DNA of 41,593 nt, taken from assembly GCA_937921595.1 (NCBI GenBank), contig CAKZTD010000038.1:1-41593 (forward strand), written 5' to 3'. The position numbers and the translations under genes were made by a program. The stretch is from an uncultured Saprospiraceae bacterium. Its GTDB lineage: Bacteria; Bacteroidota; Bacteroidia; Chitinophagales; Saprospiraceae. Positions 380 through 38,967 of this stretch are shown here, one piece after another (the first letter of the stretch is position 1; every line of letters starts with the position of its first letter). Below the pieces are notes generated by a model. That model searched no databases, was not told the origin of the DNA, and saw only the letters and a program-made list of their open reading frames with translations.

Positions 380-462
380 CAAATTAACAAGTTAGCAAAA
401 TAACAAGTGAGCAATAGGGTAGACTTATTGCTCACTTGTTAATTTATTACGCTGCTAACTTA
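380..462. repeat. Octamer-phased palindromic element between convergent genes
   Basis: The trinucleotide CAA recurs exactly every 8 bases at 380, 388, 396, 404 and 412. The complementary TTG follows at 428 and 436 in the opposite arm. Inside this lies a perfect 16-bp inverted repeat (401-416 with 426-441, 9-base loop), flanked by an outer 9-bp repeat (389-397 with 453-461) that reaches the stop codon of the minus-strand gene. It could act as a bidirectional terminator for the LptD and haloperoxidase-like genes, although neither side has a clean T-tract. Confidence 0.7.
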
Positions 463-3400
463 TTTCTGCTTCACCACTTTCTCAAAATGTCTTCTTGTTC
501 CTTCCGTATTTGAAATCACTACGAAATAAATTCCTGAAGGCATCGCTGTTAAGTCAATAGCACTAGTTCCATTTTCTAATAATAAAGTATTTTTGGAAAT
601 CAATTTACCATCACCACTAAGGATTTGAATAATCAATTCACCTTGATACTCTGAGCGAATCGTCAATTGATCCATGAAAGGATTTGGAAATAAATCGATG
701 CGTTCATCAAAATCATTATCTTCTACAGCAATGATCAAATCTCCATTAATACAATCTTCATCGATTCCATTATTCGGAATTTCCTCTGTATCAGGATTAA
801 TGGTATTGTTAAAATCGTCACAATCGAAATCATTGACGACATAACCCATCGGTGGTGTATCTTCACAAGTTTCAATAAAGTCATCAGCCGTTCCATAAGT
901 ATCCTGATCGGCATCGAAATAATAAGTGAAAACTGTCAGGCCATCATCAATGTCATTATTACAATCATTATCTAGACCATCGCAAGCTTCCTCTGCATCT
1001 GGATTAATGTTTTCATCAGTATCATCACAGTCTTGGTTATTTGTTACATAACCCATTGGAGCGACTAACTGACAAGATTGAATTTCTGAATCAGGATTTC
1101 CAAAGTTATCATTATCAAAATCTTGATAGTAGGTGGTAAAAGTCAGGCCATCGTCAGCTTCATTATTACAATCATTATCTAGACCATCACAAGCTTCTTC
1201 TGCATCAGGATTGATGTTAGGATCGGTATCGTCACAGTCTCCGCTGTTCATGACATAACCCATTGGAGCAAGCGTAGCACATGTGTCTAATGCTGAATTT
1301 AAATCTCCAAAGTTATCATTGTCCGTATCTGCATAATAAGTGAAAATAGTTAAATCATTATCAACCATGTTATCACAATCATTATCTAAATTATCGCAAA
1401 TTTCCATTGCATCAGGATTGATGTTTGGATTGGAATCATCACAGTCAAAACTATTCATTACATAGCCGCTTGGAGCAAGATTAGCACAGGTATCTAGAAG
1501 TGCATTAATGTCTCCAAAACCATCATTATCTGTATCTGCATAATAAGAATAAACGTCTGTGTCTTCATCTATCAGGTCGTTACAGTTTTCATCTAAACCA
1601 TTACACAATTCTGGAACTCCAGGATTGATCGAAGCATTATTATCATCACAATCTTCGAAGTCAAAATAGCCATCTTGATCTGCATCAGTAAAGAAATATG
1701 TTTCTGCAAAGTTGAAAGCATCTTGCCCAATTTCAATACCCATCAAACGACCAGGAATATCATCTGCCGGTGGATGAATACCTCCCCAAATTCTAGAAAG
1801 ACTACATTGGTCAGAAGCATCTCGATAAGTTGCCCATTGCAAAATGAGATCAGTACTAGGCCCTTGTTCAAAGACTAAAAAGTCATTTTGCGGAGCGGTA
1901 AATTCTCCCATTCCTCCTGGGAAAAAAGGGTCACCAGTCAATTCTGTCATGATTTCTGCTGCTGCTCTTGAAAAAGTAGAGTGTCCAGAAACATAACCTG
2001 CAAATGGAGGGGTTACAAAAGACGGTCTTTGATAAGGCCACCAATCTTCTGCTCTGATCCAATCAACTCCCGCAAACTGTGTCGCAGGGTTTATGATGTA
2101 ATCAGGACCTTTCCATGCAAATACTTTTATCTTTCCAACATGCTCATAATCTATTCCTGCTAAGCCGTCTGTAGAATCAATTAATTCGATATAGCCGTCC
2201 AACAATGGAATTCCACCAATATGATAAGAAGGCAAAGTATCTGAAGTAGATTGTCCAAGATCAGCCATCGCTCGAATGGCTGAGATCGGTCGAATATAGT
2301 CATGCCAGCCTTTAGCACCCCAAGCTGCAATTGCTGCATCATGCACTGCACCGCCCATCATAAAATAAGCTTTGACATCCCATTCCAATTCATCAAGAAT
2401 TTCTCCCTGACCTCGATATCTTTTTTCAAAATCTGGATGATCATTTACATAATTCAAAAGGGTAAACCAGTGACCTGGTGGTGTTTCAGAATCAGGACCA
2501 TCAGCCCAAAATTCTGCGAGTACTCGACCGTAATCTGCTCGTGAAACCATCTGAGGATTATAAGCTTGTCCGGTTGCAGGATTTAGTGTATGCCCAGGGC
2601 TAACATCTCCTCCTTCTATCAAATTATAAAAATCTCTTAAACCTTCTACATCTGTTGGATACTGGTCTACACTAATATTTCCAATAGAAGCAGGAGAAAT
2701 ATCGATCTGTACATCATTGGCACTTTCTGGGTCAAGGTGTGAAGACCAAATAGAAACCAAGGAAAAATTCCATTTGTATTCTTCAGAAAGTCCTCCACCT
2801 GTTTCGATATCAATCTGTGGAGGTGTTCCCGGATCGTGATAAGTCCAAAAAATATCTCCGTCTCTTTGGTGAAGCGTAAGGTCTTCATCTGTCATTGCAA
2901 AAGGGACAACTTCTCCCCACTCAGGACTTAAAAATGGTGGCGTATTATATGGAAATTCATTACCTGATTGGTCAATAAAAACATCAAGTGTCAGTGGCTG
3001 CCAACGATTAAGGTCAGCGATGTCTGGATTTCCAGAAAAATTTGTCACCAATGCTTCATTGATTGGTTCGTAGAATACATTATCGAAACCGTTTTGCTCA
3101 TTTGATCCATCTTGTAAACCAAAGTCGATCATATTTATGGCTAAGTAATTTCCTAGAGCAGCTGGTGAACCAGATTGATAATCTTGCGAAAAGTTATTCG
3201 GATCATAACCTAAAGTGGTAAATAAATTGATAAAACTATTCAGCGTCGAAGCACCTCCCGGAGAGCTGGAAAACCGATAGTTTAGTAACCTAAACATAGC
3301 ATAACTCAAGGTTTCTTCTCTGGCAGCCTGAATATCTGCAGGCATTGGAATACCATCAAAAGGACATTCAAATCCTCTGATGTTGTTTCCTAGAAAGAAA

Positions 3401-3624
3401 GGCTGAGCGATACTGTCATACACTGCCCAAGAATCGTACATCACAGCAGAGGTATGGAATAGATTTCTAGCATGGACTGTTGGTCTAGCGAAATCATTTC
3501 GGATGGCATCAAGCATTACGTCATTCCATTGTCTGGCTACGGAATGCTGAGCATTAACATTTGGTAGTGTTATAAAGAGGAAAATCCCTAGAAGGAGAAT
3601 TCTCGTGGGGTTAAACTTTTTCAC
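460..3624 (-). CDS. Secreted vanadium-dependent haloperoxidase-like protein with MopE-type metal repeats and T9SS domain
   Basis: This 1054-residue protein has a signal peptide (about 1-25), a helical vanadium haloperoxidase/PAP2-type domain (about 30-635), five acidic repeats (647-962) and a T9SS type A sorting domain (975-1054). The vanadate-binding set appears complete: K438 and R445 followed by Pro (spacing 7), S546-G547-H548, and R611 with H617 (spacing 6). These spacings match K353/R360, S402-G403-H404 and R490/H496 of Curvularia chloroperoxidase. Each acidic repeat has a DxDxDG-like loop, a DCDD element and a Cys-x-Gly-x-Asp-x-x-Cys segment, as in the putative metal-binding MopE motif. 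The protein is probably exported and anchored or released by T9SS. Whether it oxidises halides or is a phosphatase relative cannot be told from sequence. A promoter-like TATCTTTG lies about 106 bases upstream. Confidence 0.85.
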   Translation of the reverse strand: MKKFNPTRILLLGIFLFITLPNVNAQHSVARQWNDVMLDAIRNDFARPTVHARNLFHTSAVMYDSWAVYDSIAQPFFLGNNIRGFECPFDGIPMPADIQAAREETLSYAMFRLLNYRFSSSPGGASTLNSFINLFTTLGYDPNNFSQDYQSGSPAALGNYLAINMIDFGLQDGSNEQNGFDNVFYEPINEALVTNFSGNPDIADLNRWQPLTLDVFIDQSGNEFPYNTPPFLSPEWGEVVPFAMTDEDLTLHQRDGDIFWTYHDPGTPPQIDIETGGGLSEEYKWNFSLVSIWSSHLDPESANDVQIDISPASIGNISVDQYPTDVEGLRDFYNLIEGGDVSPGHTLNPATGQAYNPQMVSRADYGRVLAEFWADGPDSETPPGHWFTLLNYVNDHPDFEKRYRGQGEILDELEWDVKAYFMMGGAVHDAAIAAWGAKGWHDYIRPISAIRAMADLGQSTSDTLPSYHIGGIPLLDGYIELIDSTDGLAGIDYEHVGKIKVFAWKGPDYIINPATQFAGVDWIRAEDWWPYQRPSFVTPPFAGYVSGHSTFSRAAAEIMTELTGDPFFPGGMGEFTAPQNDFLVFEQGPSTDLILQWATYRDASDQCSLSRIWGGIHPPADDIPGRLMGIEIGQDAFNFAETYFFTDADQDGYFDFEDCDDNNASINPGVPELCNGLDENCNDLIDEDTDVYSYYADTDNDGFGDINALLDTCANLAPSGYVMNSFDCDDSNPNINPDAMEICDNLDNDCDNMVDNDLTIFTYYADTDNDNFGDLNSALDTCATLAPMGYVMNSGDCDDTDPNINPDAEEACDGLDNDCNNEADDGLTFTTYYQDFDNDNFGNPDSEIQSCQLVAPMGYVTNNQDCDDTDENINPDAEEACDGLDNDCNNDIDDGLTVFTYYFDADQDTYGTADDFIETCEDTPPMGYVVNDFDCDDFNNTINPDTEEIPNNGIDEDCINGDLIIAVEDNDFDERIDLFPNPFMDQLTIRSEYQGELIIQILSGDGKLISKNTLLLENGTSAIDLTAMPSGIYFVVISNTEGTRRHFEKVVKQK

Positions 3625-3929
3625 AAGTCAATTTTTTTGAATGGTGTAAAATAAAAAACGGAGCTTTTTTAGCTCTTTGATTTGATTTACGAACATTTTT
3701 AAAATGCTTGAAAAGCAAATGCTATAAAACAAAGATAACTTATTACGATTTATTGATATAAATAACTATACAATAATATAGCCATTTATTGGTCTCGGGA
3801 AGGGTATTTGAATTGGGTAATCAGATTGATTAATGATTATCTGATGAATACTGAATTAAAGTTAAGATTTATTTTTTTGTTTTGGGTAGGTTTTTTTAGG
3901 TTTTAACAAATTAGAGAATTTATATCTAT
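3625..3929. other. 305-base AT-rich spacer
   Basis: No coding frame is evident. It holds a small hairpin (GAGCT/AGCTC around 3661-3675) and a promoter-like box at 3730-3737 for the haloperoxidase-like gene. The rest is plain AT-rich sequence. Confidence 0.5.
3730..3737 (-). promoter_or_regulatory. Promoter -7 box TATCTTTG
   Basis: On the minus strand this is an exact match to the Bacteroidota -7 consensus TAnnTTTG. It would give a leader of about 100 bases for the haloperoxidase-like gene. No convincing -33 TTTG was found at the usual spacing. Confidence 0.4.
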
Positions 3930-4121
3930 TTATGATCTAGGATTGCCTTTCGCTTTTTGAATCAAATAGATGCCTATGAGGGCTAAAACGACCGCAGAGA
4001 TAGCTATGCTAAGTCCCCATTCGCTATTTTTCCAGGTGGTCAAATTTAGAATAACTAGTAATCCTCCAATACAGGAGAGCGTGTATCCTAAGCTTTCAAG
4101 TTTTTTGTTTTTTTTGGACAT
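3930..4121 (-). CDS. Small two-helix membrane protein
   Basis: The 63-residue protein has a lysine-rich N-terminus (MSKKNKK) and two hydrophobic segments, about residues 11-28 and 36-54, separated by a short polar turn. A basic tail ends the protein, so both termini probably face the cytoplasm. It lies 12 bases downstream of the CPCC-protein gene on the same strand and is probably co-transcribed with it. I do not recognise a family. The spacing and clean membrane topology argue for a real gene, but it is too short to be certain. Confidence 0.55.
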   Translation of the reverse strand: MSKKNKKLESLGYTLSCIGGLLVILNLTTWKNSEWGLSIAISAVVLALIGIYLIQKAKGNPRS

Positions 4122-4133
4122 GGAGTATTGAGT

Positions 4134-4697
4134 TTATGCTTTTCTAAATTTAATTTTTCCTTCGGGGTCGATAGAAGTTAGATGAGATTGACTCATTGCG
4201 CCGTATTTTTCAAAATTATTTTGTGCTTCTTCCAAAGTCATACGATTGGGGCCATCTCCTCCATTCTCCCAAAAACAAACAGGGCAAATGTCCCAGGCTC
4301 CATCTTCACCGAAGTCAATGGAATAATATTTACAACAAGGACATAAACCAGCAGGCTCAGTTTTTCCAATAACAGAAGCTTTTATTCCTATTTCTACTAA
4401 TTTTTTTTCAAGATATTTATTGGTTGAAAATTGAAATGTAAAAATTAAGTAGTCTCTATAAATTGGTTGGAATGCTTCTTCAAATTCAAGATTAAATAAA
4501 TCTTCTTGTTGAATTTGATCAAGAGCTTTCCGAGATAAACCAGTTAATTTTCCTTCATTCAAATAGGTATTGATTTCTTCCGCATAATCGTAATATGGGA
4601 AATCAATTTTTAATTCTGGTAAATCACAATTTGATTTTTTTAGAATAGTTTCAGCAAATAGTATTTTTGCTTTTTCTCTGTTTATTTTTTTTGTCAT
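4134..4697 (-). CDS. CPCC family cysteine-rich protein
   Basis: The C-terminal third of this 187-residue protein carries C119-P-C121-C122 and, sixteen residues on, C138-P-V-C141 followed by FWENGGDGPN. This is the signature of the cysteine-rich CPCC domain (Pfam Cys_rich_CPCC), expected to bind zinc as a ribbon-like knuckle. The N-terminal 110 residues are charged and helical and match nothing I recognise. There is no signal peptide, so it is probably cytoplasmic. CPCC proteins have no firm function; many occur as small standalone or accessory proteins. It sits between the YiiX-like gene (39-base gap) and the small membrane protein gene, all on the minus strand. Confidence 0.7.
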   Translation of the reverse strand: MTKKINREKAKILFAETILKKSNCDLPELKIDFPYYDYAEEINTYLNEGKLTGLSRKALDQIQQEDLFNLEFEEAFQPIYRDYLIFTFQFSTNKYLEKKLVEIGIKASVIGKTEPAGLCPCCKYYSIDFGEDGAWDICPVCFWENGGDGPNRMTLEEAQNNFEKYGAMSQSHLTSIDPEGKIKFRKA

Positions 4698-4736
4698 TTA
4701 AAATAATCGATTCAGGATTAAATTGGGCTTATTTTA

Positions 4737-5483
4737 TTATTTGTTTCTCAAACCCCGAAACCCTTCTGGCTCTCCGTAAGCATGAACGATATCCAAATAA
4801 ATAGATCGCGACATACTCCCAGGATTCAATCCCGGTTTTCCTTCTGGAATAAATTTACCCAGTTGCTGAAAATATTCCAACCAAATAGGGAAGGTTTCTT
4901 TTGTCGCTGGATCTTTGTAGGTCATGGGGCGCAATTGAAAAATAGGCGTTCCATTATTCGCATCTTTAAAACCAAAATAAATTAATTCCGAACAATAGAA
5001 TTTATCATTTTCCAAATTAAAAACTTCATCATAAGCTTTGCCGCGATGTTGCAATGCACTTTGTATGGCAGGTGGGATTAATGCTTTTTGTTCTTGTTTT
5101 AATCTTCCTACGAGCACTTTTGGATGGCCAGCTTTATCAGCACTTCGATTGAGGAAAGAATCAATTGACGTTTCAACGACGCCTTTAGAAATGGCTTCTA
5201 ATACAGCGAATTCACTATCTCCTCCTTGGATTACAATTCCTACATGAGATAATCTCGCACCATTATATCCATGGGTTACTTTTTCGATGGCTTCACAAAA
5301 AGAACCACAGTCACCATCTTGAAATAAAAGATCTCCTTCCATTAATTGAAAATCGTTTGAAGTACTTTCAATAGGAACTGTTTTAGCTGTTGTTTTTTGT
5401 TCTACTGGAGCATCGGATTTACAAGCAAGCAAAAATAGGCTGAACCCAAAAAAGAACGTGAGGAGTTTTATATTTGTTTGCAT
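4737..5483 (-). CDS. YiiX/YebB-like NlpC/P60-type cysteine hydrolase lipoprotein
   Basis: The 248-residue lipoprotein has lipobox LLAC (C21). The YiiX/YebB-like (DUF830-type) permuted NlpC/P60 fold follows: DGDLLFQ-type strand, the LSHVGIV histidine (H80), and FYCSELIY with the nucleophile C164. These hydrolases cleave amide or ester bonds in peptidoglycan or lipid substrates; the substrate here is unknown. An upstream in-frame ATG at 5507 would add eight residues, but the -7 box TAATTTTG (5505-5512) overlaps that codon, so I chose the start at 5483, which opens directly into the signal peptide. The lipoprotein should sit in the periplasm or outer membrane. Confidence 0.75.
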   Translation of the reverse strand: MQTNIKLLTFFFGFSLFLLACKSDAPVEQKTTAKTVPIESTSNDFQLMEGDLLFQDGDCGSFCEAIEKVTHGYNGARLSHVGIVIQGGDSEFAVLEAISKGVVETSIDSFLNRSADKAGHPKVLVGRLKQEQKALIPPAIQSALQHRGKAYDEVFNLENDKFYCSELIYFGFKDANNGTPIFQLRPMTYKDPATKETFPIWLEYFQQLGKFIPEGKPGLNPGSMSRSIYLDIVHAYGEPEGFRGLRNK

Positions 5484-5504
5484 ATTTAGATATAGGTATG
5501 AGTA

Positions 5505-5512
5505 CAAAATTA
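5505..5512 (-). promoter_or_regulatory. Promoter -7 box TAATTTTG
   Basis: Minus-strand match to TAnnTTTG located 22 bases before the ATG at 5483. It overlaps the alternative upstream ATG and so decides the start of the YiiX-like gene. Confidence 0.45.
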
Positions 5513-5545
5513 ATAGATTAAAAAGATGTGATTAAGTGAGTTGTA

Positions 5546-8892: not shown

Positions 8893-8929
8893 TTCTCACT
8901 CTTCACTTCTCCGTTCTTACTCCTGAAAT
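8893..8929. repeat. Heptamer-phased pyrimidine tract at the ompA-like stop
   Basis: CAC, CAC, CCG and TAC occur at 8897, 8904, 8911 and 8918, exactly 7 apart, in a pyrimidine-rich run that ends at the minus-strand stop codon. The tail CCTGAAATTA resembles that of the tract at 12174-12212. Confidence 0.5.
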
Positions 8930-12173: not shown

Positions 12174-12212
12174 TCTCCTCACTCTACACCGTTCACTCCT
12201 CACTTCTGAAAT
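12174..12212. repeat. Heptamer-phased pyrimidine tract between arsS and its partner
   Basis: CAC occurs at 12180, 12187, 12194 and 12201, exactly 7 apart, and the run reaches the minus-strand stop of the AhpD-like gene. The tail CTTCTGAAATTA resembles the tract at 8893-8929. It fills half of the 80-base operon spacer. Confidence 0.55.
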
Positions 12213-12550: not shown

Positions 12551-12643
12551 GGTTTATTGATTTAGGTGATGTAAAATGTTTTTACTTAAAGTATGTCAAT
12601 TTGGAATTGAATAATATTGGTTTTGAATTAGCTCGAAGCCAAT

Positions 12644-12697
12644 AAAAACGGCATTAGGTATTAGGGCTCTCCTAATGCCGAATACCTAATGCTGTGT
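12644..12697 (-). repeat. Heptamer-phased palindromic repeat, copy A (inverted)
   Basis: Read on the minus strand this matches the other three copies: TTAGGTA, TTCGGCA and TTAGGAG words at 7-base phase, then AGCC and complementary words. It contains two competing perfect hairpins, a 10-bp one (CGGCATTAGG with its complement) and a 12-bp one (12651-12662 with 12681-12692). It lies between divergent genes. Confidence 0.75.
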
Positions 12698-12895
12698 TTG
12701 CTCAGGCATAAACTAATAGCTTAGGGTTCATGTTATTATTTTTCAAACCTGATTCGCATAAAATATTATTATAAAAGCTTTTTCTGAAAAAATAGTTTAC
12801 GCTTTATCCAAGGGATCAAAATTAATAGGTCTTTTTTTATAAAAGTGTTTTGCTTAAGACAAATAGACTAAGCCAAATAGCTAACAAGTTTTTAC

Positions 12896-13530: not shown

Positions 13531-13566
13531 AATCAAAATCAAAAAGAGAATCAAAATCAAAATTTA
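13531..13566 (+). repeat. Hexamer-phased AATCAA array
   Basis: AATCAA occurs at 13531, 13537, 13549 and 13555, with AAAGAG filling the missing slot at 13543: five in-phase hexamers starting 3 bases after the pyrophosphatase stop codon. It leads into a terminator-like hairpin. Confidence 0.55.
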
Positions 13567-15595: not shown

Positions 15596-15612
15596 TATCT
15601 TATTTTTTCTGT

Positions 15613-15669
15613 TCTAATGTGACTAATGTGGTTATAAGATTTTTTCACCATATTAGTCACATAAGAATG
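15613..15669. repeat. Long near-perfect hairpin between convergent genes
   Basis: A 16-bp stem with one wobble (15617-15632 with 15647-15662) and a 14-base loop. The arms are built of TAATGTG/GTTATAAG-like words about 8-9 bases apart, similar to those at 30425-30480. It could terminate transcription from both sides, although no strong T-tract follows. Confidence 0.6.
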
Positions 15670-15754
15670 AAATCTATATCTCTTTGAGAGAAATCCTTTT
15701 AAAAATAAATCTGCTAATTTTTTTTCGTACTCCTAATTATTAAATATTCATCAT

Positions 15755-16254: not shown

Positions 16255-16290
16255 CTTTCACTCATCACTTTATCGTAAGTGATCTATTCC
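16251..16290. repeat. Heptamer-phased tract at the sigma-factor stop
   Basis: CAC at 16259 and 16266 is followed at the same phase by an inverted copy (ATCACTT / AAGTGAT, a 7-bp hairpin at 16264-16282). The tract ends 4 bases from the minus-strand sigma stop codon. Confidence 0.4.
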
Positions 16291-16293
16291 TTA

Positions 16294-16851
16294 TTATCCC
16301 ACTCCCGGCATTCGATTCTCCTGAACCAAAGATCTCAAACGCTTTTTTGCTAAGATCAATTGTGATTTCGATGTATTGATACTAATTTCTAAAATTTCAG
16401 CAATCTCTCGATGTTTATAACCCTCGACTACATAGAGGTTGAAAACCGTTCGGTAACCTGTCGGTAATTTTTCAAGTAACTTCAAAATATCTTCGGCAGC
16501 TAAATGATCTTCCACAGTGATCTGTGATTTGATTTCAATATTGCTGATTTCGACGGTCATTTTAAAGTTATGTGCTTTTCGCAAAAACATCAAGGCTTCA
16601 TTGACCATTACTCTTCTCATCCAGCCTTCAAAACTACCACCACCGTGATACTGACTGATTTTGCTCATGATCTTATACATCCCTTCAATCATCACATCTT
16701 CTGCATCCTCTTGATTTCTTACATAACGGCGGCAGATACCCAGCATTTTCGCGGAGTAACGATCAAAAAGCAACTTCTGAGCTTTTCGCTCTTGCTGTTG
16801 GCAAGCCTGTATGAGGTCTTTTTCGTTCACGTAGGTAGTTTTCGGTATCAT
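16294..16851 (-). CDS. ECF RNA polymerase sigma factor
   Basis: The 185-residue sigma-70 family protein has region 2 (about 15-90, including RRYVRNQEDAEDVMIEG and SFEGWMRRVMVNEAL, the core-binding and -10 recognition parts) and region 4 (about 125-180, with LPTGYRTVFNLYVVEGYKH and the helix-turn-helix IAEILEISINTSKSQL). No region 1 or 3 is present, as expected for ECF factors. It would direct transcription of a specific regulon in response to an envelope signal. The downstream single-pass membrane gene is the likely antagonist. A perfect 14-bp palindrome sits 8 bases before the start codon. Confidence 0.9.
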   Translation of the reverse strand: MIPKTTYVNEKDLIQACQQQERKAQKLLFDRYSAKMLGICRRYVRNQEDAEDVMIEGMYKIMSKISQYHGGGSFEGWMRRVMVNEALMFLRKAHNFKMTVEISNIEIKSQITVEDHLAAEDILKLLEKLPTGYRTVFNLYVVEGYKHREIAEILEISINTSKSQLILAKKRLRSLVQENRMPGVG

Positions 16852-26551: not shown

Positions 26552-27275
26552 ATAAAAAGTAAGGGATTTTCATCCCATAAATGGTCTATATGTCTTATGT
26601 TTTGAAGTTTGGTAAAATAAGTGTCTTTGTATTTACGTAAATGAATACCCAATTGTCATTGAAAAAAACGATTCATTACTAGAGAATGGCCATTCAAGCA
26701 TCAAAAAAAGGCTGAATTTGAGCAATTCTGCTTAGTAACATACAAAAAACAATTTTGTTTGATTTTCACGCTTTAGGGAGGAGAATTAGAAAATCACCTC
26801 ATTTTTGCTTGTTAGCCTATATCCGATTTGTAAATGTGAATTTGATTGCAGCAATCAACTTTAGGAGACCATTTTTTAGGTGCTAAAGAAGTGTCCTCAA
26901 AGATTATACTTTATCCGCTTATAAAATGTAAAGTATTTGGCAAAACTGAATTTCAATGGAGTTTATGATTGGGAATCGTAAGACCGAAGGCCTATGTCAT
27001 GAGCGTAGCGAATTTTTTTTGGTAATTGCCATCTTGTTTTTTCTTTATTAAAAGAAGTTGCGGATAATACATTGGGCAAGTTACAAACTTGCCATTATTC
27101 GATACTTTCAAGTTACAGCCTTCTAAAGTCGGCTTAAACTTAAAAGAGTATCCTTTTTTGAGAATAATTTGCAACTTGAATTAATTAATACCATCAAGAT
27201 TTAAAAGATAATTTAACATGCAAATCAGGCTTGAATTTACTAATGAAACTAAACGCTTAATTTGAAACTGAGTAT

Positions 27276-27333
27276 AAACGGTATTAGAATTTCGGCATTA
27301 GAAGAGCCCGAAAACCTAATACCGAATGCCTTT
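27276..27333 (+). repeat. Heptamer-phased palindromic repeat, copy B
   Basis: Words TTAGAAT, TTCGGCA and TTAGAAG at 7-base phase are followed by AGCCCGA and complementary words. The ends pair as CGGTATTAG with its complement (27279-27287 with 27316-27324). It lies about 58 bases downstream of the rfaE1 stop. Confidence 0.75.
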
Positions 27334-27390
27334 CTAACATAGAGCATATTTAAAACTAATATTATTTTGAATACTGGTTGGTAATGGTAG

Positions 27391-28433: not shown

Positions 28434-28473
28434 ATTATGTAGCTATGTTATAATCTAGTCATATAACTATTAA
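28434..28473. repeat. Octamer-phased word array upstream of rfaE1
   Basis: Five octamers in a row have A at the fourth position (28437, 28445, 28453, 28461, 28469), and most fit an R-Y-N-A-T pattern. The words (GCTATGTT, GTCATATA, ACTATTAA) closely resemble those at 30425-30480. Confidence 0.5.
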
Positions 28474-28534
28474 ATAGGAAGACAATAATTTTTTTATTAA
28501 AGGGGCACCTAAGCGGTTATTTTTATATTAGAAA

Positions 28535-28594
28535 ATACGCTATTAGGTGTTCGGCATTAGGAGAGCGCGAATACCGAACACCTAATGTCGCTTT
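28535..28594 (+). repeat. Heptamer-phased palindromic repeat, copy C
   Basis: The most regular copy. A perfect 13-bp inverted repeat (28542-28554 with 28574-28586) is formed by words TTAGGTG, TTCGGCA and TTAGGAG starting at 28543, 28550 and 28557, followed by their complements at the same phase. It lies about 75 bases downstream of the M15 peptidase stop. Confidence 0.8.
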
Positions 28595-28668
28595 AAGTAA
28601 GCTTGGAGTTAGTTCAATTTTATAATCATTTTTGTCCTTATTACAATATTTGCTACCTCTCTCTAAAA

Positions 28669-30412: not shown

Positions 30413-30424
30413 TTATTTCATGTA

Positions 30425-30480
30425 GTTATGTGGTCATCTGATTATATAACTATGTAATCAGATGACGATATGACTAGATT
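30425..30480. repeat. Octamer-phased element filling the waaA-methyltransferase spacer
   Basis: Seven consecutive octamers all have a purine first and A fourth; the A's are at 30428, 30436, 30444, 30452, 30460, 30468 and 30476. A perfect 12-bp inverted repeat (30433-30444 with 30455-30466) is embedded. The element occupies nearly the whole 72-base gap, starting 5 bases after the waaA stop. Confidence 0.7.
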
Positions 30481-30484: not shown

Positions 30485-31729
30485 CTAATTTAAATACCCT
30501 TTTTTCTTTATAAACTTAAGGATCTCCTCTGTAGCTCCTTGATTCTTTTGAATGTATTCTTTCGCCTTTTCAGATGCTTTATTGTAAAAAGTATCTTCTT
30601 CTAATTGATTGAATATTTTGTGTAGGCTATCTGAAGAATGAATCGAAAACCCTCCGCCATTTTCTACCAACCAATTGGCTTCTTCGAACTTTTGAAACTT
30701 CTTACCAAAAACCACTGGCAATCCAAATGCAATAGGTTCTAAAGTATTATGTAAACCTTTGCCCAAAGCACCTCCGATGTAGGCAACTTTTCCATATTGA
30801 TAAAGTGCTGCGAGCATACCGATGTTATCGATGATCAGCATGTCATAATTTTTTAAATCCACACCTTCCGCTTTTGAATATCGAATTTTTGAAGGAAGAA
30901 AAGTATGCTCAATATGTTCGACTCTTGATTCAGCAATATCATGAGGGGCAATGATGTATCGCCATTTTTGCGGATAGCTATTGATGTAAGAATTTAGAAT
31001 TTCTTCATCCAAAGGCCAAGTACTTCCCAGGATCAATGCCGGTCGACCTCCAACGAATTCTTTAATAATAGAAAAGCTTTTTTGCTGACTGGCAAGTTTG
31101 GCGACTCGATCTACTCGAGTATCACCAACGATTGAAACGTTCGATATTCCATTTTTTAAAAGCACCTGTTCAGCGTTTTTATTTTGTACAAAAATATGAT
31201 CAAGACCTTTGATTACTTTTTTAAACCATTGGCCATAGCTTTTGAAAAAGAATTGCTTTTCTCGAAACAAAGCAGAAACCAAAAGGGTAGGGATGCCTGC
31301 ATTTTGAAGCTCGTTGAAGTAATGATACCAGAGTTCGTATTTTATAAAAATCACCAGTTTGGGTTTGGTAATTTCGATGAATCGTTTAGCATTTTTTTGA
31401 GTATCTAAAGGCAGGTAAGTAACATAATCTGCTAAGGGATAATTTTTTCGAATTTCATAACCAGAAGGGGAGAAGAAGCTAAGTAAAATTTTACAATCTG
31501 GATACACTTGTTTGATTTGCTCAATGATTGGACGGCCTTGTTCGAATTCTCCGAGAGAAGCGGCATGAATCCAAACGAGATTTTTTTCTGCTCCGACTTC
31601 TGAACGTTCTAATGTTTGGAACACCTCTTTTCTACCTTCAATCCATTGGGATGCTTTGGTTTGGAAAAAGGAAGCGAATTGGATTCCTTTTTTATAAAAT
31701 TGTAAAGCGATATTGTAAATTCCGAGCAT
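30485..31729 (-). CDS. waaA: 3-deoxy-D-manno-octulosonic acid (Kdo) transferase
   Basis: This 414-residue GT-B glycosyltransferase begins MLGIYNIALQFYKKGIQFAS, with the family's KASQWIEGR and the catalytic WIHAASLGEFEQGRP (E61 as the expected base). Later come ILLSFFSPSGYE, LVSALFREKQFFF, GDTRVDRV, LILGSTWPLDE and the donor-binding GGALGKGLHNTLEPIAFGLPVVFG. It transfers Kdo from CMP-Kdo to lipid A at the inner membrane. The frame can be extended to a TTG at 31735, but the ATG at 31729 gives the normal N-terminus. A -7 box (31733-31740) lies only 3 bases before it, which may mean a leaderless message. Confidence 0.95.
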   Translation of the reverse strand: MLGIYNIALQFYKKGIQFASFFQTKASQWIEGRKEVFQTLERSEVGAEKNLVWIHAASLGEFEQGRPIIEQIKQVYPDCKILLSFFSPSGYEIRKNYPLADYVTYLPLDTQKNAKRFIEITKPKLVIFIKYELWYHYFNELQNAGIPTLLVSALFREKQFFFKSYGQWFKKVIKGLDHIFVQNKNAEQVLLKNGISNVSIVGDTRVDRVAKLASQQKSFSIIKEFVGGRPALILGSTWPLDEEILNSYINSYPQKWRYIIAPHDIAESRVEHIEHTFLPSKIRYSKAEGVDLKNYDMLIIDNIGMLAALYQYGKVAYIGGALGKGLHNTLEPIAFGLPVVFGKKFQKFEEANWLVENGGGFSIHSSDSLHKIFNQLEEDTFYNKASEKAKEYIQKNQGATEEILKFIKKKGYLN

Positions 31730-31740: not shown

Positions 31741-31816
31741 GGAATTTTTAGAACTTATGCCAATCAGGTTTGAAGGGGATTAAGATGACATTAGTACTTA
31801 ATTTTAACGGGAGCCT

Positions 31817-31879
31817 AAACGGTATCTAGGTGTTCGGCTTTAGGAGAGCCCGAAAACCAAATACCTAATGTCGTTTTTT
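31817..31879 (+). repeat. Heptamer-phased palindromic repeat, copy D
   Basis: Words CTAGGTG, TTCGGCT and TTAGGAG, then AGCCCGA and the complements ATACCTA and ATGTCGT, all at 7-base phase. It ends in TTTTTT. The arms are less perfect than in copy C. It lies about 40 bases downstream of the T9SS gene stop at 31917. Confidence 0.7.
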
Positions 31880-31916
31880 CTTGACGTAAAGGTATTGTAT
31901 GTGGATAAAGGAAAAA

Positions 31917-33122: not shown

Positions 33123-33135
33123 AGCTTAAGGTTTT

Positions 33136-33182
33136 AGGTTTACTAAATTTCTCTTTATCAAGTATAAAAAATTAGTAAACCT
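33136..33182. repeat. 10-bp inverted repeat in a gene spacer
   Basis: AGGTTTACTA (33136-33145) pairs with its complement (33173-33182) across 27 bases, between the barrel-protein stop and the T9SS gene start. No T-tract follows. It may be an attenuator or mRNA-stabilising stem. Confidence 0.4.
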
Positions 33183-33194
33183 TAGGGAAGTTTT

Positions 33195-33941: not shown

Positions 33942-34044
33942 GTAATATGTTTTTTTATCTAATAACTTAACGCAAAGAACGGGAGATTCGGCCACTTTGA
34001 CAAATCTTATCCGACGGATTAGTCAGGTTTTAGAAAGAGAGTTA

Positions 34045-34130
34045 GAATGCATAAATGCGAAAATGCTTAAATGATCGAATAGGGAGCATTATTCAATCAT
34101 TCTAGCATTCAGAAATTCAATCATTAATAA
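34045..34130. repeat. Octamer-phased palindromic element in a divergent spacer
   Basis: AATG starts at 34046, 34054, 34062 and 34070, exactly 8 apart. The complementary CATT starts at 34098, 34106 and 34122, with AATT filling 34114, again 8 apart. The arms form a 19-bp stem with three mismatches (34062-34080 with 34091-34109). It ends just before the -7 box of the DegT gene. Confidence 0.75.
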
Positions 34131-34131
34131 T

Positions 34132-34139
34132 TATCTTTG
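34132..34139 (+). promoter_or_regulatory. Promoter -7 box TATCTTTG
   Basis: Exact TAnnTTTG match followed by GCGG, 19 bases before the DegT-family ATG. It abuts the octamer-phased element. Confidence 0.5.
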
Positions 34140-34158
34140 CGGACTGAAAACAGAATAT

Positions 34159-35316
34159 ATGCAAAACATTCCCATGGTAGACCTTCAAGGTCAATACCGA
34201 AGAATCAAACCTGAAGTTGATCAAGCAATTCATGAAGTATTGGATTCCTGTTACTTTATAGGAGGAGGTCCGATAAAGACTTTCTCTCAAAATCTTGCAG
34301 AATTTTTAGGTGTAGAACATGTCATTCCTTGCGGAAATGGCACCGATGCGCTCCAGATTGCTTTAATGGCTTTGGATTTAAAACCAGGAGATGAGGTGAT
34401 AACAACACCTTTTACTTTTGTGGCAACGGCCGAGGTGATCGCATTACTTCAACTAAAACCGGTTTTTGTTGATGTCGATTATGATACTTTTAATATAAAT
34501 GAGCGTCTCATAGAAGACGCCATCACCGAAAGAACAAAATGTATTATTCCTGTCCATTTATTTGGTCAATCCTGTAATATGGAGGCCATTATGGAAATTG
34601 CTCAAAAACACGGAATTCACATAGTTGAAGATAATGCTCAAGCGATCGGAGCAGATTTTCAATATGAAAATGGAGTGACTCAAAAAGCAGGTACGATTGG
34701 CCATATCGGCTGTACTTCTTTTTTTCCATCGAAGAATCTTGGTGCTTATGGAGATGCAGGAGCGATTTTTACAAATGACGACGCGTTAGCTACAAAAATC
34801 CGATTGATTTGTAATCATGGATCAAAAGTTAGATACTATCATGATGAGATTGGAGTGAATTCTCGACTAGATACTATGCAAGCTGCAGTTTTAAATGTAA
34901 AATTGAAATACCTTGAAAATTACTGTGCAGCAAGACAAAAAGCTGCTGATTTTTATAACAAGCAACTAATTGGGGAATCTGACGTAATTATACCTAAAGA
35001 AGTAAAGTACTCTACACACGTTTATCATCAGTATACATTAAAGCTACCAAATACCGATCGTGATAAAGTGGTAAAGAATTTGAAGGAGAACGGTGTTGCT
35101 TCAGGTGTATACTACCCCATACCATTACATCTCCAACATGCCTATAAACAATATGGCTTTAATCAAGGAGATTTTCCTGTTTCGGAGCAATTAGCTCAGG
35201 AGGTTTTATCACTTCCTATGCATACTGAATTAACTGAAGAGATACAAAATATTATTTTAAACCATTTGCGAAGTGCAATTAGCAAATCAACATCTACCGA
35301 AAATTTATTGAGATGA
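34159..35316 (+). CDS. DegT/DnrJ/EryC1/StrS family sugar aminotransferase
   Basis: The 385-residue PLP enzyme has [41 protein letters not shown] and the PLP lysine K192 in [15 protein letters not shown]. The N-terminus [20 protein letters not shown] is like that of WbpE/WlbC-type enzymes that aminate the 3-keto group of UDP-sugars, but the exact substrate cannot be set. It converts a keto-sugar nucleotide to an amino sugar for surface glycans. Its stop overlaps the start of the next gene by 4 bases (ATGA), which implies translational coupling. Confidence 0.9.
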
Positions 35317-36266
35317 AAAGAATTTTAATTACCGGAGCTGCCGGATTCCTAGGATCGCATCTTTGCGATCGTTTTATTAAAGAAGGATACCATGTTATTG
35401 GAATGGATAACCTCATTACTGGTGATATGACGAATATCGAACATCTTTTTCCTTTAAAGGAATTTGAATTTCACCACCATGATGTTTCTAATTATGTACA
35501 TGTAGCTGGCGAGCTGGATTATATCTTGCATTTCGCATCTCCTGCAAGTCCGATTGATTATTTACAGATGCCTATTCAAACTATGAAAGTAGGAGCATTA
35601 GGTACGCATAATCTTTTGGGTTTAGCAAAAGAGAAAAAAGCTAGAATGTTAATTGCTTCTACTTCTGAAGTTTATGGTGATCCATTGATTCACCCACAGG
35701 TTGAAGAATATTGGGGGAATGTGAACCCAATCGGTCCTCGTGGTGTATACGATGAGGCAAAGCGTTTTCAAGAAGCGATTACGATGGCTTACCATAATTA
35801 TCATGGTCTTGAAACTAGAATCATTCGTATTTTCAATACTTATGGTCCAAGAATGCGTGTCAATGATGGTCGAGTATTACCAGCATTTTTCTCTCAAGCA
35901 ATTCGTGGCGAGGGATTAACTGTTTTTGGTGATGGTTCTCAAACACGTTCTTTCTGCTATGTTGATGATTTGGTAGAAGGAATCTGGTTATTATTACACA
36001 GTGATTATCACATGCCAGTGAATATCGGAAACCCATCAGAGGTGACGATCAAAGAATTTGGAGAAGAGGTATTAGAGTTGGTAGGTAATCCAAAAGCAAA
36101 ATTAATCTACAAGGAACTTCCAGAGGATGATCCTAAAAAACGTAGGCCAAATATTACTAAAGCTAAAGAAATCTTAGGTTGGGAACCAAAAGTATCTCGT
36201 GCTGAAGGTTTGAAAAGAACTTACGAATACTTTAAGATAGCAGTGAAGGTAGACGAACCGGCTTAA
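35313..36266 (+). CDS. UDP-glucuronate decarboxylase-like NAD-dependent epimerase/dehydratase
   Basis: The 317-residue extended SDR has the NAD-binding [10 protein letters not shown] (about 7-16), [32 protein letters not shown] and the catalytic Y146-D-E-A-K150. [16 protein letters not shown] and [17 protein letters not shown] are characteristic of UDP-xylose synthase (UDP-glucuronate decarboxylase). It would turn UDP-glucuronate into UDP-xylose or its 4-keto form. It is translationally coupled to the DegT gene upstream, which suggests that both act on one sugar pathway. The spacer to rfbB holds an octamer-phased element beginning at its stop codon. Confidence 0.9.
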
Positions 36267-36350
36267 GCAAGTGAACAATGGAACAAGTTGATAAGTGAAC
36301 AATGAGGCTTTTGCTAGTTTGTTGGCTTATAAACTTGTTTACTTATTTTT
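36266..36350. repeat. Octamer-phased palindromic element before rfbB
   Basis: CAA or TAA starts at 36268, 36276, 36284, 36292 and 36300, exactly 8 apart. Complementary TTG/CTT words follow at 36310, 36318, 36326, 36334 and 36342. The words match those of the element at 380-462. It begins at the uxs-like stop codon and ends in a long T-run. Confidence 0.72.
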
Positions 36351-36369
36351 TTTGTAAAAAAAATTATAG

Positions 36370-37422
36370 ATGAAACAAACAATCTTAATTACCGGAGGCG
36401 CAGGATTTATCGGTTCGCATTTGGTGCGTATGTTGGTAGAACAATATCCAGACAGGCATTATGTAAATTTAGATTTACTGACTTATGCTGGAAATTTAGC
36501 TAACTTAAGAGACATCGAAGATAAACCGAATTATACTTTTGTAAAAGGAGATATCGTTGATGCTGATTTTTTAAATGGCTTATTCAAACAATACAATTTT
36601 GATGGAGTTATCCATCTTGCTGCCGAATCTCATGTCGATCGATCGATCGAAGATCCGACTGCATTTATCAAAACCAATATTTTGGGGACGATGAATTTGT
36701 TGAATGCTGCAAGACATAATTGGGAGAGTTTTGAAGGTAAGCGTTTCTATCATGTTTCTACGGATGAGGTTTATGGTACGCTTGGCGAAACTGGATTATT
36801 TAGAGAAGATACTTCTTATGATCCACGGTCTCCATATTCTGCTTCGAAAGCTAGTTCTGATCACTTAGTGAGAGCATTTTTCCATACTTATGATATGCCA
36901 ATCGTTATTTCGAATTGTTCGAATAACTACGGCCCTTTTCAGTTTCCTGAAAAATTGTTGCCGCTTTTTATCAATAACATTAAGCACAACAAATCTTTAC
37001 CTGTTTACGGTGACGGAAAATATACTAGAGATTGGCTTTGGGTAGGCGACCACGCTACTGCGATTGATTTGATTTATGAAAAAGGTAGAGTAGGGGAGAC
37101 CTACAATATCGGAGGAAATAATGAGTGGAAAAACATTGATCTAATCAATGATCTTTGTGATGTGATGGATGAACTTTTGGATCGTGAAGAAGGGGCTTCT
37201 AAAAAATTAATTACTTATGTAAAAGATCGTGCTGGTCATGATCGACGATATGCTATTGACGCATCAAAATTGATGAACGAACTTGGCTGGGAACCAACGG
37301 TCTTTGCTAAAGAAGGTTTACGAAAAACTGCTGAATGGTATCTTGCTAACGAGGAGTGGATGGAGAATGTGACGAGTGGAGATTACCAGAAATATTATGA
37401 GTCGATGTATGCGGAGCGATAA
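36370..37422 (+). CDS. rfbB: dTDP-glucose 4,6-dehydratase
   Basis: The 350-residue extended SDR has TGGAGFIGSH (about 8-17), HLAAESHVDRSI, the dehydratase triad region STDEVYG (T131, D132, E133) and Y156-S-A-S-K160 in SPYSASKASSDHLV. ISNCSNNYGPFQFPEKLLP and WLWVGDHATAI are diagnostic for RfbB/RmlB. It makes dTDP-4-keto-6-deoxyglucose, the precursor of rhamnose and other deoxy sugars for O-antigen or capsule. The other rml genes are not in the window. Its stop codon lies inside a 10-bp hairpin with a GAA triloop. Confidence 0.95.
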   Translation: MKQTILITGGAGFIGSHLVRMLVEQYPDRHYVNLDLLTYAGNLANLRDIEDKPNYTFVKGDIVDADFLNGLFKQYNFDGVIHLAAESHVDRSIEDPTAFIKTNILGTMNLLNAARHNWESFEGKRFYHVSTDEVYGTLGETGLFREDTSYDPRSPYSASKASSDHLVRAFFHTYDMPIVISNCSNNYGPFQFPEKLLPLFINNIKHNKSLPVYGDGKYTRDWLWVGDHATAIDLIYEKGRVGETYNIGGNNEWKNIDLINDLCDVMDELLDREEGASKKLITYVKDRAGHDRRYAIDASKLMNELGWEPTVFAKEGLRKTAEWYLANEEWMENVTSGDYQKYYESMYAER

Positions 37423-37440
37423 ATTGCGAAGCAATTTATC
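37418..37440. repeat. 10-bp hairpin with GAA triloop over the rfbB stop
   Basis: GATAAATTGC and its complement pair perfectly around GAA; the apex contains GCGAAGC, known as an unusually stable DNA mini-hairpin. The rfbB TAA lies in the left arm. Confidence 0.75.
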
Positions 37441-37482
37441 GAAGGATAGATTCCCTGAAGCGAATAGAGGTGGATAAGTTTG

Positions 37483-37575
37483 GCAAAGCGAAGTACTATT
37501 TATTTAGTTCTTCGCTTTGCTAATTTAGGAGGTCACTATTGCCGTAGGCAATCTACCCCTATCATCGAAGATGAT
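37483..37575. repeat. Cluster of three hairpins between rfbB and pgk
   Basis: An 11-bp stem (37483-37493 with 37510-37520) is followed by ATTGCC/GGCAAT around GTA (37538-37552) and ATCATC/GATGAT around GAA (37561-37575). The latter two share the GNA-triloop form. They fill the spacer between the convergent rfbB and pgk genes and could terminate both. Confidence 0.6.
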
Positions 37576-37606
37576 CTATACCTTTTTTCAAGCGCAGCGA
37601 GAAAAA

Positions 37607-38806
37607 CTACTTAATCGCAGCGATCCCCGGGAGTTCCTTACCTTCCAAAAATTCCAGCATAGCACCTCCACCCGTAGATACATAACTCACCTTATCTGCT
37701 AAGCCCATTTGATTTACTGCAGCAACAGAATCACCACCACCAACCAAAGAGAAGGCACCTTTACTCGTCGCCTTAGCCACAGCTTTAGCAATCGTCATTG
37801 TTCCTTTAGCAAAAGGTTTCATTTCGAAAACACCCATTGGCCCATTCCAAAGTAACGTTTTAGATTTTAAAACTACCGCAGTAAAATCTTTCTGAGCAGC
37901 CGTTCCAATATCCAATCCCATCCAACCTTTAGGAATTCGCTTGCTGTATTTATTCGCTGTTTTAGCTTTTGCATTGAAGTCATCCGCAGCTGTAGAATCT
38001 TTTGGTAAATAGATTTTTACCCCTTTCTTTTCCGCTTTTTTCAAAAGACGAAGTGCTAGTTTTAGTTTGTTATCCTCGACTAATGAGTTTCCAACATTTC
38101 CGCCTTGCGCTTTTAAAAAGGTATAAGCCATTCCACCACCGATCAATAAATTGTCAGCGAAGTCGATTAATTTTTCTAACAAAAGAATCTTATCAGAAAC
38201 TTTAGCACCACCGATGATTGCAGTCAAGGGACGCTCAGGATTGTGCAAAACCTTTTCCGCATTTTCAATTTCTTTTTGCATTAAAAAACCAAAGCTCTTG
38301 GTTCCTTTTTTGAAAAACTGAGCAACAGTTGTTGTCGAAGCATGTGCCCGGTGAGCGGTTCCAAAAGCATCATTGATGTAAAGGTCACCCAATGCTGCTA
38401 ACTTTTTTGCGAAAGCAGTATCGCCTTTACTTTCTTCTTTTTGAAAACGAGTATTTTCTAAAATCAAAACCTCACCTGGCTTCAATGCCTTGGTCATTTT
38501 CGTAGCTTCTTTACCAACAGTCTCTGGGCAGAATTGAACTTTTTTTCGAAGTAGTTTTCCAACATGCTTTGTCACATGATTTAAAGTAAACTTCTGAACA
38601 TTGATTGAACCATCCTCATTTAATTTTTTTTGAGGGCGACCAAGGTGAGACATTAAGATCACAGAACCTCCAGCTTTTAGAACATGCTTGATGGTCGGTA
38701 ATGCTGCTTGGATTCTGGTATCGTCAGTGATTTTATATTTTGCATCGAGAGGCACATTGAAGTCGACTCGGATTAGGGCTTTCTTTCCTTTAAAATTTAA
38801 TTCCAT
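37607..38806 (-). CDS. pgk: Phosphoglycerate kinase
   Basis: The 399-residue enzyme begins MELNFKGKKALIRVDFNVPL and has ILMSHLGRPQKK, LENTRFQKEE, NDAFGTAHRAHAS, IIGGAKVSDKI, LLWNGPMGVFE and the C-terminal SLVGGGDSVAAVN, all diagnostic for PGK. It transfers phosphate between 1,3-bisphosphoglycerate and ADP in glycolysis. An upstream in-frame ATG at 38857 would add 17 unrelated residues; the -7 box TATTTTTG at 38831-38838 lies between, so 38806 is the start. It follows gap on the same strand, after the gap terminator, so the two are probably separate transcripts. Confidence 0.97.
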   Translation of the reverse strand: MELNFKGKKALIRVDFNVPLDAKYKITDDTRIQAALPTIKHVLKAGGSVILMSHLGRPQKKLNEDGSINVQKFTLNHVTKHVGKLLRKKVQFCPETVGKEATKMTKALKPGEVLILENTRFQKEESKGDTAFAKKLAALGDLYINDAFGTAHRAHASTTTVAQFFKKGTKSFGFLMQKEIENAEKVLHNPERPLTAIIGGAKVSDKILLLEKLIDFADNLLIGGGMAYTFLKAQGGNVGNSLVEDNKLKLALRLLKKAEKKGVKIYLPKDSTAADDFNAKAKTANKYSKRIPKGWMGLDIGTAAQKDFTAVVLKSKTLLWNGPMGVFEMKPFAKGTMTIAKAVAKATSKGAFSLVGGGDSVAAVNQMGLADKVSYVSTGGGAMLEFLEGKELPGIAAIK

Positions 38807-38830
38807 TGTTAAATGATATTTAGTTTGTCG

Positions 38831-38838
38831 CAAAAATA
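38831..38838 (-). promoter_or_regulatory. Promoter -7 box TATTTTTG overlapping a terminator tail
   Basis: Exact TAnnTTTG match on the minus strand, 24 bases before the pgk ATG. It touches the base of the gap terminator stem and overlaps its T-tract. Confidence 0.5.
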
Positions 38839-38878
38839 AAAAACACCGCTCATTCAAAAGAAAGAAGCAGTGTTTTTT
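38838..38878 (-). terminator. Terminator between gap and pgk
   Basis: Thirteen-base arms (38866-38878 with 38838-38850, one mismatch) with a 15-base loop pair on the minus strand. The T-rich left arm runs into TTTTTTATTTTTG, which supplies the T-tract. Confidence 0.7.
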
Positions 38879-38920
38879 ATATTATTTTAAAAGTTAGAGG
38901 ATATTAAAGATTGAGTAATA

Positions 38921-38967
38921 AAACTCACTTCTCACAAAGCCGTAGGCCCTTCACCTCTCACCTCTAT
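38921..38967. repeat. Heptamer-phased pyrimidine tract at the gap stop
   Basis: CAC occurs at 38926 and 38933, then at 38952 and 38959 (each pair 7 apart), around a GCC-GTA-GGC mini-palindrome. TCACCTC is repeated in tandem. The run ends 2 bases from the minus-strand stop codon. Confidence 0.5.

Follow-up and report, generated by a model that had tools for sequence, protein, structure and literature searches.

Spacers in the genome of an uncultured Saprospiraceae bacterium carry short degenerate words that recur at a fixed phase of 7 or 8 bases, in part as mirrored arms, and these arrays favour the 3' ends of genes. A first-pass annotation of contig CAKZTD010000038.1 (C38; its whole length of 41,593 nucleotides is referred to here as the window) had named fifteen such sites. 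We followed them up in the window and in 80 further stretches, which make 81 pieces and 1.126 Mb, or 14% of a genome of 8.04 Mb in 465 contigs. This sample contained 849 called genes and 624 spacers of at least 30 bases; genes were called by a simple codon-score choice among open reading frames (ORFs), independent of annotation, and in the window these calls were consistent with the ORF list. Our preferred reading, to which we give a probability of roughly 45%, is that arrays of words born by slippage function in this genome as RNA hairpins at mRNA 3' ends. Tandem words with a unit of 7 or 8 bp, or in some cases of 6 or 9, would grow through slippage, would then spread inside one genome and would be retained mainly 3' of stop codons, many of them gaining a mirrored second arm. 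Lying at the 3' end of the transcribed mRNA, such an element would form an imperfect hairpin with its G-richer arm adjoining the stop codon. The hairpin may then protect the mRNA end or act in weak termination, in the manner of the repetitive extragenic palindromic (REP) or palindromic unit (PU) hairpins.

Autocorrelation of the 624 spacers against 20 dinucleotide shuffles gave a clear excess at lag 7 (z 11.9) and lag 8 (z 13.8), with echoes at lag 16 (z 3.5) and lag 24 (z 5.8). Lags 3-6 were raised too (z 4.1-9.3), and lags 9-15 showed no excess (z from -1.7 to 1.7). When the two dispersed families described below, E and B, were masked, z values of 10.7 at lag 7 and 9.5 at lag 8 remained. Coding DNA, taken as 600 pieces, was negative at lags 7 and 8 and raised at lags 6, 9 and 12, the codon period. 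The claim that these spacers hold phased words is therefore upheld, and the two signs on which the first-pass annotation had staked it, a 7/8-base excess and a preference for 3' ends of genes, were both present in the 14% of the genome covered. A perfect array (L076, 5530-5577) lies alongside decayed ones, which fits an origin by slippage followed by drift.

The signal at single sites is weaker than that of the whole set. Each named site was compared with 600 shuffles over an interval beginning 20 bases ahead of the named base and ending 100 bases past it, and 11 of the 15 reached p<0.05 at the lag first assigned to them (380, 8897, 12180, 12644, 13531, 27276, 30425, 31817, 34046, 36268 and 38926), the best segment being the right arm at 27276, 31817 and 36268. 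The lags given for 28535 (p 0.058), 16259 (0.105), 28434 (0.35) and 15613 (0.93) were not borne out; the last had been described as a looser 8-base array. With the lag free to vary between 5 and 12, six sites remained, namely 380, 12180 (p 0.050), 13531, 30425, 34046 and 38926. Several elements had been said to touch a stop codon. The stop coordinates named do match ORFs, and the words actually lie about 1-5 nt away, making 'touch' slightly loose. The elements of the window are as follows.

377-458, unstranded: 8-base words AACAAGTT/AGCAAAAT, then a mirrored CTTGTTAA arm, with 27 of 35 pairs Watson-Crick, in a convergent spacer 1 nt off the stop at 460; lag 8, p 0.002.
8896-8925, minus strand: single arm of ARRRGTG-class 7-base words (complement on the plus strand), by eye about 3 nt off the stop at 8929; lag 7, p 0.043.
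12175-12207, minus strand: ARRRGTG-class 7-base words 4 nt off the stop at 12212; lag 7, p 0.007; among the genome-wide pattern matches.
12597-12759, minus strand: family E copy with a GGTATTA/GGCATTA heptamer core, in a divergent spacer; nhmmer 108 bits.
13531-13563, plus strand: single arm of 6-base words AATCAA, 3 nt after a stop; lag 6, p 0.002; also from Tandem Repeats Finder (TRF).
15607-15672, plus strand: hairpin with words AATGTGACT, 11 nt after a stop; stem score 18.9; best lag 9 (lag 8 unsupported, p 0.93).
16258-16269, minus strand: a weak run of heptamers close to the stop at 16294; lag 7, p 0.105, not significant.
27218-27381, plus strand: family E copy; nhmmer 110 bits.
28436-28448, minus strand: ATGTAGCT-like octamers; lag 8, p 0.353, not significant alone.
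28496-28640, plus strand: family E core with another outer flank (GAAGACAA...), which is common to L013; nhmmer 85 bits.
30420-30479, minus strand: octamers ATGTAGTT/ATGTGGTC and a mirrored arm (23 of 28 pairs), 5 nt off the stop at 30485; lag 8, p 0.002.
31757-31895, plus strand: family E copy; nhmmer 92 bits.
34046-34125, unstranded: octamers ATGCATAA/ATGCGAAA, then a mirrored ATTCAATC arm, in a divergent spacer; lag 8, p 0.002; tested segment 34046-34080, fold z -1.9; right end set by eye.
36268-36352, plus strand: octamers AACAAGTT/GATAAGTG, about 2 nt after the stop at 36266, with a mirrored arm that ends in T8; lag 8, p 0.018.
38926-38965, minus strand: ARRRGTG-class heptamers with an inserted GGGCCTACGGC, 3' of GAPDH and 3 nt off its stop at 38969; tested segment 38951-38965; lag 7, p 0.008.

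The inner insert of the last element has a near-identical counterpart between ARRRGTG words in an unlinked spacer (L021, 10341-10522), where it reads GGGCCTGCGGC.

For comparison we used a pool of relatives from the same order or closer. By GAPDH the closest named relatives are Saprospiraceae metagenome-assembled genomes (MAGs) at identities of 78% and below; those searched include four genomes of the same genus, with a KDO transferase 51-57% identical in three. The pool also takes in three genomes from outside the family but within the order (G026, G031 and G032), as well as L163 and L164, two loci with vague names. Relatives' spacers containing N were excluded from the segment, hairpin, permutation, polarity, G-U/A-C and stop-distance counts, and N runs were left in for their spacer autocorrelation. 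Segments or arms above 85-90% A+T were excluded from the RNA folding, polarity, G-U/A-C and stop-distance analyses.

The gene-end preference is firm. Counting phased segments at lags 6-8 above a fixed score threshold, we found 11 in the 108 convergent spacers of this genome against 1.8 after shuffling and 44 in the 384 co-directional spacers against 9.9, with little excess in the 132 divergent spacers (11 against 7.1). In the relatives, scored at lags 6-9 with a higher threshold, convergent spacers gave 18 in 144 (shuffled 1.0), co-directional 43 in 576 (3.6) and divergent 12 in 192 (3.2). The 3'-end preference that had been proposed is thus confirmed by the excess in convergent and co-directional spacers. 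Crowding at the stop itself is modest in this genome, where 11 of 57 segments start within 12 nt of it against a uniform expectation of 6.5 and a maximum of 14 in 2000 draws; the relatives gave 19 of 79 (expectation 10.2, maximum of 2000 draws 19). Within 25 nt the counts were 14 against 12.0 expected here and 28 against 18.8 in the relatives.

The mirrored arms carry the same phase. Among 150 hairpins of this genome, counted in spacers of up to 1500 bases, arm excess was confined to lags 7 and 8, with z 3.4 and 4.8 in left arms and 2.6 and 3.8 in right arms. The arms of 146 hairpins from the relatives were raised at lag 7 (z 3.8 and 4.5), and 24 hairpins from a group that is mostly non-Saprospiraceae showed nothing at lag 7 and a weak signal at lag 8 (2.2 and 1.5). 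Strongly phased hairpins numbered 17 in this genome, three of them family E, against 4.9 with shuffled arms, and 14 against 4.3 in the relatives. In 9 of these 17 and 5 of these 14, reordering the right-arm words never gave pairing as good as that of the real order; this test favours the real order because each register had been chosen as the best. An additional 80 kb of the genome (28 spacers) held one phased hairpin. One relative has two near-identical large hairpins in separate spacers (L134, 12799 and 15122), with AACTATG phased heptamers around a fixed inner stem, CCTCGTCTCA.

The arms are also polar. Counting E and B copies too, 22 of 26 phased hairpins of this genome are richer in G in the left arm and 2 in the right, compared with 74 and 43 of 124 unphased ones. 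Among the relatives, 11 of 15 phased hairpins have the G-richer arm on the left and 3 on the right, with 56 and 59 among 130 unphased ones. Segments that begin no more than 25 nt from the stop favour G (12 to 5 of 18 here, 21 to 7 of 30 in the relatives), and those farther away lean to C, with G against C at 20 to 31 of 51 here and 13 to 35 of 57 in the relatives. A degenerate 9-base array in L239 was excluded from the polarity and pooled hairpin counts, and the pooled counts were likewise limited to spacers of up to 1500 bases.

Mismatches in the stems offer a means of separating RNA from DNA pairing. Read on the mRNA strand, a transition in a stem is as likely to leave G-U as A-C, and RNA pairing survives only for G-U. 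Both were scored symmetrically, convergent spacers were assigned by their nearest stop, and E- and B-type hairpins were separated, so that the phased counts are free of them. Ordinary co-directional hairpins gave G-U:A-C ratios of 89:44 here and 78:24 in the relatives, and ordinary convergent hairpins gave 28:28 and 27:32, the expected lack of bias. It follows that the test works on the whole. Phased co-directional hairpins of this genome gave 33:15 (13 hairpins against 3, p 0.02), resembling its ordinary 3' hairpins, and phased convergent ones 15:9 here and 19:12 in the relatives. Phase, mirroring, polarity and the preference for gene ends are thus established by the counts; a pairing bias on the mRNA strand is supported in this genome only, and we infer that the elements are transcribed, arise by slippage, spread inside the genome and have a role at the 3' end.

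Several observations weigh against this interpretation. Many elements are single-armed, and by RNA folding z the phased elements fold no better than other gene ends (median z -1.2 for 54 phased elements, -1.6 for 150 unphased 3' ends and -0.4 for the middles of divergent spacers). The G-U bias of this genome is based on 17 hairpins, and one control departed from expectation, with divergent unphased hairpins of this genome at 11:24 (p 0.04). In the relatives the phased co-directional ratio is reversed, at 12:31 (12 hairpins, 1 against 8), and for this reason the pooled co-directional phased hairpins show no bias. T-runs of at least 5 follow just 2 of 18 phased hairpins here and 1 of 16 in the relatives. 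The mirrored-arm claim of the first-pass annotation holds for the phase within the arms, lags 7 and 8, although mirroring does not extend to every element. An earlier conclusion of our own, that the pooled 51:49 meant no RNA selection, was dropped once the split by genome gave 33:15 here and 12:31 in the relatives. We read these figures as an RNA-level constraint in this genome and, in the relatives, as either none or the disturbed registers of long arrays; the sample is small. Of the roles first suggested, 3'-end stabilisers and selfish repeats may each apply; the G-U test speaks for a role in RNA in this genome and not in the relatives.

Much of this would also be expected of neutral or selfish repeats, an explanation that we regard as quite possible. 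Slippage and copying would then act anywhere in spacers, selection would clear promoters and genes so that gene ends remain, and the mirrored arms would result from inverted duplication or template switching at the DNA level with no selection on RNA. Single-arm arrays, ordinary folding and the reversed strand bias of the relatives all agree with it, as do word sets that differ between genomes and the presence of family E in all spacer types. Against it stand the mRNA-strand excess of G-U compared with A-C here, the arm polarity, and the number of segments beginning no more than 12 nt from the stop, which exceeds a uniform distribution modestly here and more strongly in the relatives. On this balance we narrowly prefer 3'-end RNA hairpins built from slippage arrays.

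Another possibility, in our view an unlikely one, is that the elements act as intrinsic terminators and that the repeated words in their stems are incidental. Their position at gene ends would suit a terminator, element 36268 ends in T8, and at the end of GAPDH phased arrays sit where many relatives have, by eye, plain hairpins with T-runs. Against this, T-runs of at least 5 follow 35 of 112 unphased hairpins here and 33 of 112 in the relatives, which with E-type hairpins separated, as in our first pooled test, sums to 68 of 224 unphased against 3 of 34 phased (no statistical test was applied). The gap is smaller for T-runs of at least 4, at 0.33 phased against 0.45 unphased here and 0.31 against 0.50 in the relatives. 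The rarity of T-runs speaks against ordinary intrinsic termination. As a class the phased hairpins lack the hairpin-plus-U-tract combination that single elements such as 36268 possess, and the earlier suggestion of terminators finds little support, the U-tract being rarer than after ordinary hairpins.

The window elements had also been described as differing in words and sharing one architecture. The words do differ, and the architecture proved to be a mixture of a dispersed family and word-only elements. Family E, which comprises sites 12644, 27276, 28535 and 31817, has a 169-bp palindromic consensus with a heptamer core and 29 copies in the 1.126 Mb; it occurs in every spacer type, with 6 of the 29 copies in divergent spacers. 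Family B (AATGAGTG) has 26 copies in the sample. Most of the remaining window elements have words in common and flanks that are not, and non-seed matches to the AACAAGTT set mostly span the middle of the model, as judged from 40 of the 47 matches. Family E had no match in the relatives examined at E 0.01. Three rows for family B were obtained among the relatives, all in L141 (5170-5306; GAPDH identity 63%), the sole relative locus matched.

Might E and B be mobile elements resembling miniature inverted-repeat transposable elements (MITEs), with transposition explaining the whole phenomenon? We consider this very unlikely. Family E does resemble MITEs in being dispersed and palindromic, with terminal inverted repeats, many copies and recurrent ends (ATGCGAATCAGG/CCTGATTGGC), family B is similarly numerous, and the E copies in L078 and L082 have, by eye, a common loop insertion. 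However, lags 7 and 8 persist with both families masked, no target-site duplication was apparent by eye in the 29 copies, and some copies lack the common ends, the E core being found with at least two outer flanks or none. A matching transposase, sought only as Y1_Tnp, was not found either: the flanks of about 300-500 bases around the two Y1_Tnp genes of the genome were without the five word classes sought, bar one lone GGCATTCGG. A link to RAYT genes was rejected on the same ground. An inspection by eye for GTAG or CGTC tags, which covered the family E consensus, showed none at its ends.

Other dispersed material was seen in these spacers. In 20 of the 624, AGGGATAGAT alternates with short variable stems (for example CACCTGCGGTG and TTCGATGAATCGAA), several to a spacer, and forms modular arrays in L005 (16619-16752), L006 (16164-16400) and L010 (10822-10958), among others. 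Recurrent palindromes around GCAAGTTACAAACTTGC, met at about 27075-27095 of the window and through the 9-mer CAAGTTACA in 13 sample spacers, are perhaps a further dispersed class.

Within this genome the words recur at many loci. In genome-wide pattern searches, with overlapping matches counted apart, three consecutive words with up to 1 mismatch gave 79 matches for ARRRGTG against 23 for the reversed-word control and 89 against 0 for GGYRTTM; the counts for DAYAARTK were 11 against 0 and those for RTRTRGYK 70 against 16. Other genomes of the family are phased with other words, including TTGAATG, AGTCATD, ATTGGTG, GGAAGAC and AAGTTGAA. By genome, lag 7 reached a z of at least 2.8 in 9 of 11 relatives and lag 8 a z of at least 2.7 in 3 of 11. 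Loci of named relatives, taken together, were raised at lags 5-9 and 12, partly through N runs. For these autocorrelations the vaguely named L112, L117, L118, L129, L143 and L160 were omitted and L159 was shifted to the 'nonSapros' group, whose 20 loci still include L175, L179 and L180, titled Saprospiraceae or Aureispira. The array excluded above begins at 11545 of L239, in relative G005 (57% G+C), and consists of degenerate 9-base words TCGGGTCAA/TCGGGTTAA over hundreds of bases.

Three copies of AACTTGTT with up to 3 mismatches matched 18 times in this genome against 1 for the reversed control, and in 3 of 295 other genomes of the phylum, one of which matched the reversed control equally often. 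Outside this genome, more genomes had matches to the reversed word (about 18) than to AACTTGTT itself (3), and such arrays therefore arise with many words. Two candidates for a phylum-wide word set were discarded: TTGAAWK was weak, its 12 matches lying in 10 of 296 genomes where the reversed control had 6 matches, and AGTCATD matched in 0 of 296, its reversed control giving 29 matches in 4 genomes.

Words also differ at one gene end. Of 80 loci, 58 entered a comparison of the region 3' of GAPDH and 57 could be read, with scores taken directly and not set against shuffles. Five relatives score at least 10 at lags 6-9 (L120, L138, L141, L142 and L146), each with other words, and the window has its ARRRGTG element there. 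L140 scores 8.0 and looks mirrored by eye; many of the remaining relatives have the plain hairpin and T-run mentioned above.

Tandem intergenic heptamers are known from cyanobacteria as STRR repeats, to which the elements here are similar. To our knowledge the description of STRR includes neither mirrored arms nor a gene-end preference, and by these two traits the present elements would stand apart. A closer likeness is found in Xanthomonas, where, in the part of the report available (PMC4692102), degenerate GGGAATC heptamers occupy 186 and 183 sites in two genomes, with 70 and 75 inverted pairs. Most of them are intergenic, at a mean distance of 28 nt from the ORF on their 5' side, and only a minority are placed between divergent ORFs (8% and 7%); that part leaves their function open (PMC4692102). 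The agreement extends to degenerate words with fixed and variable positions dispersed over many intergenic loci, as in Nostoc too, to inverted pairs on the gene-end side with few in divergent spacers and G-rich words downstream on the coding strand, and to a length and sequence that vary between species (PMC4692102, as far as the available part goes). One G-rich word type is studied in the portion available (PMC4692102), unlike the several word sets per genome, octamers included, found here.

G-quadruplex formation was proposed for the GGGAATC and GGGGA(C/T)T heptamers of Xanthomonas and Nostoc in the available part of PMC4692102. The same idea could be extended to our elements, given a G-richer arm that, on the coding strand, likewise lies 3' of the gene, and E and D words with GG pairs. 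Unlike those heptamers, however, none of the 54 phased-element spacers contains a G3-type motif, and we think this explanation extremely improbable.

Heptamers have been reported from the phylum itself. The available part of PMC4679880 describes TAACTGA in marine Beggiatoaceae, cyanobacteria and five Bacteroidetes as an invariant word mostly just before start codons, with one inverted case in the main genome. In one Bacteroidetes seven units lie just 3' of a stop, and two Bacteroidetes are noted as having further heptamers (PMC4679880, same part). Those repeats resemble ours as tandem heptamers in spacers, with stops in all frames and an uneven spread among genomes; in contrast to them the present elements prefer gene ends and have no single invariant word (PMC4679880, as available). 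TAACTGA words were absent from the 120 most enriched spacer 9-mers listed. REP, PU, BIME and REPIN elements are likewise intergenic gene-end hairpins with a proposed effect on mRNA stability; the accessible part of PMC3733652 gives GTAG or CGTC tags for REP palindromes, GTAG REPs also with RAYT genes, and CGTC repeats in Bacteroidetes. Unlike REP elements, ours showed no RAYT gene flanked by repeats in the Y1_Tnp flanks searched. The first-pass annotation had considered the mirrored layout undescribed in Bacteroidota. We met no description of mirrored phased words there in the literature searched, which took in few subscription papers; heptamer arrays of Bacteroidetes are nevertheless in print (PMC4679880) and the mirrored layout is already described for Xanthomonas (PMC4692102), both as judged from the parts available. 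What differs here is several word sets per genome, octamers and no quadruplex motif.

Apart from the spacers, the window contains a 207-bp tandem repeat within a gene (919-1547) whose protein has a tail of the type IX secretion system (T9SS) sorting type and five MopE metal-binding motifs.

Taken together, the elements are a common intergenic class that family libraries have overlooked, an Rfam scan of the window at gathering scores returning one tRNA and nothing else. A wider proposal, which we offer as a speculation and judge somewhat unlikely, is that Saprospiraceae rebuild their gene-end RNA hairpins lineage by lineage: slippage arrays would form after stops, gain a mirrored arm and replace the ordinary terminator, so that one gene end, that of GAPDH, would bear unrelated word hairpins in different lineages. 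If this is true, 3'-end RNA structure would arise repeatedly from short tandem repeats, a single genome having several word sets and its relatives others. Together with Xanthomonas, phased-word hairpins would then represent a general route from repeats to regulatory RNA. The origin of gene-end hairpins would become observable as a process, and the pattern offers a testable case of how gene-end structures may come from repeats.

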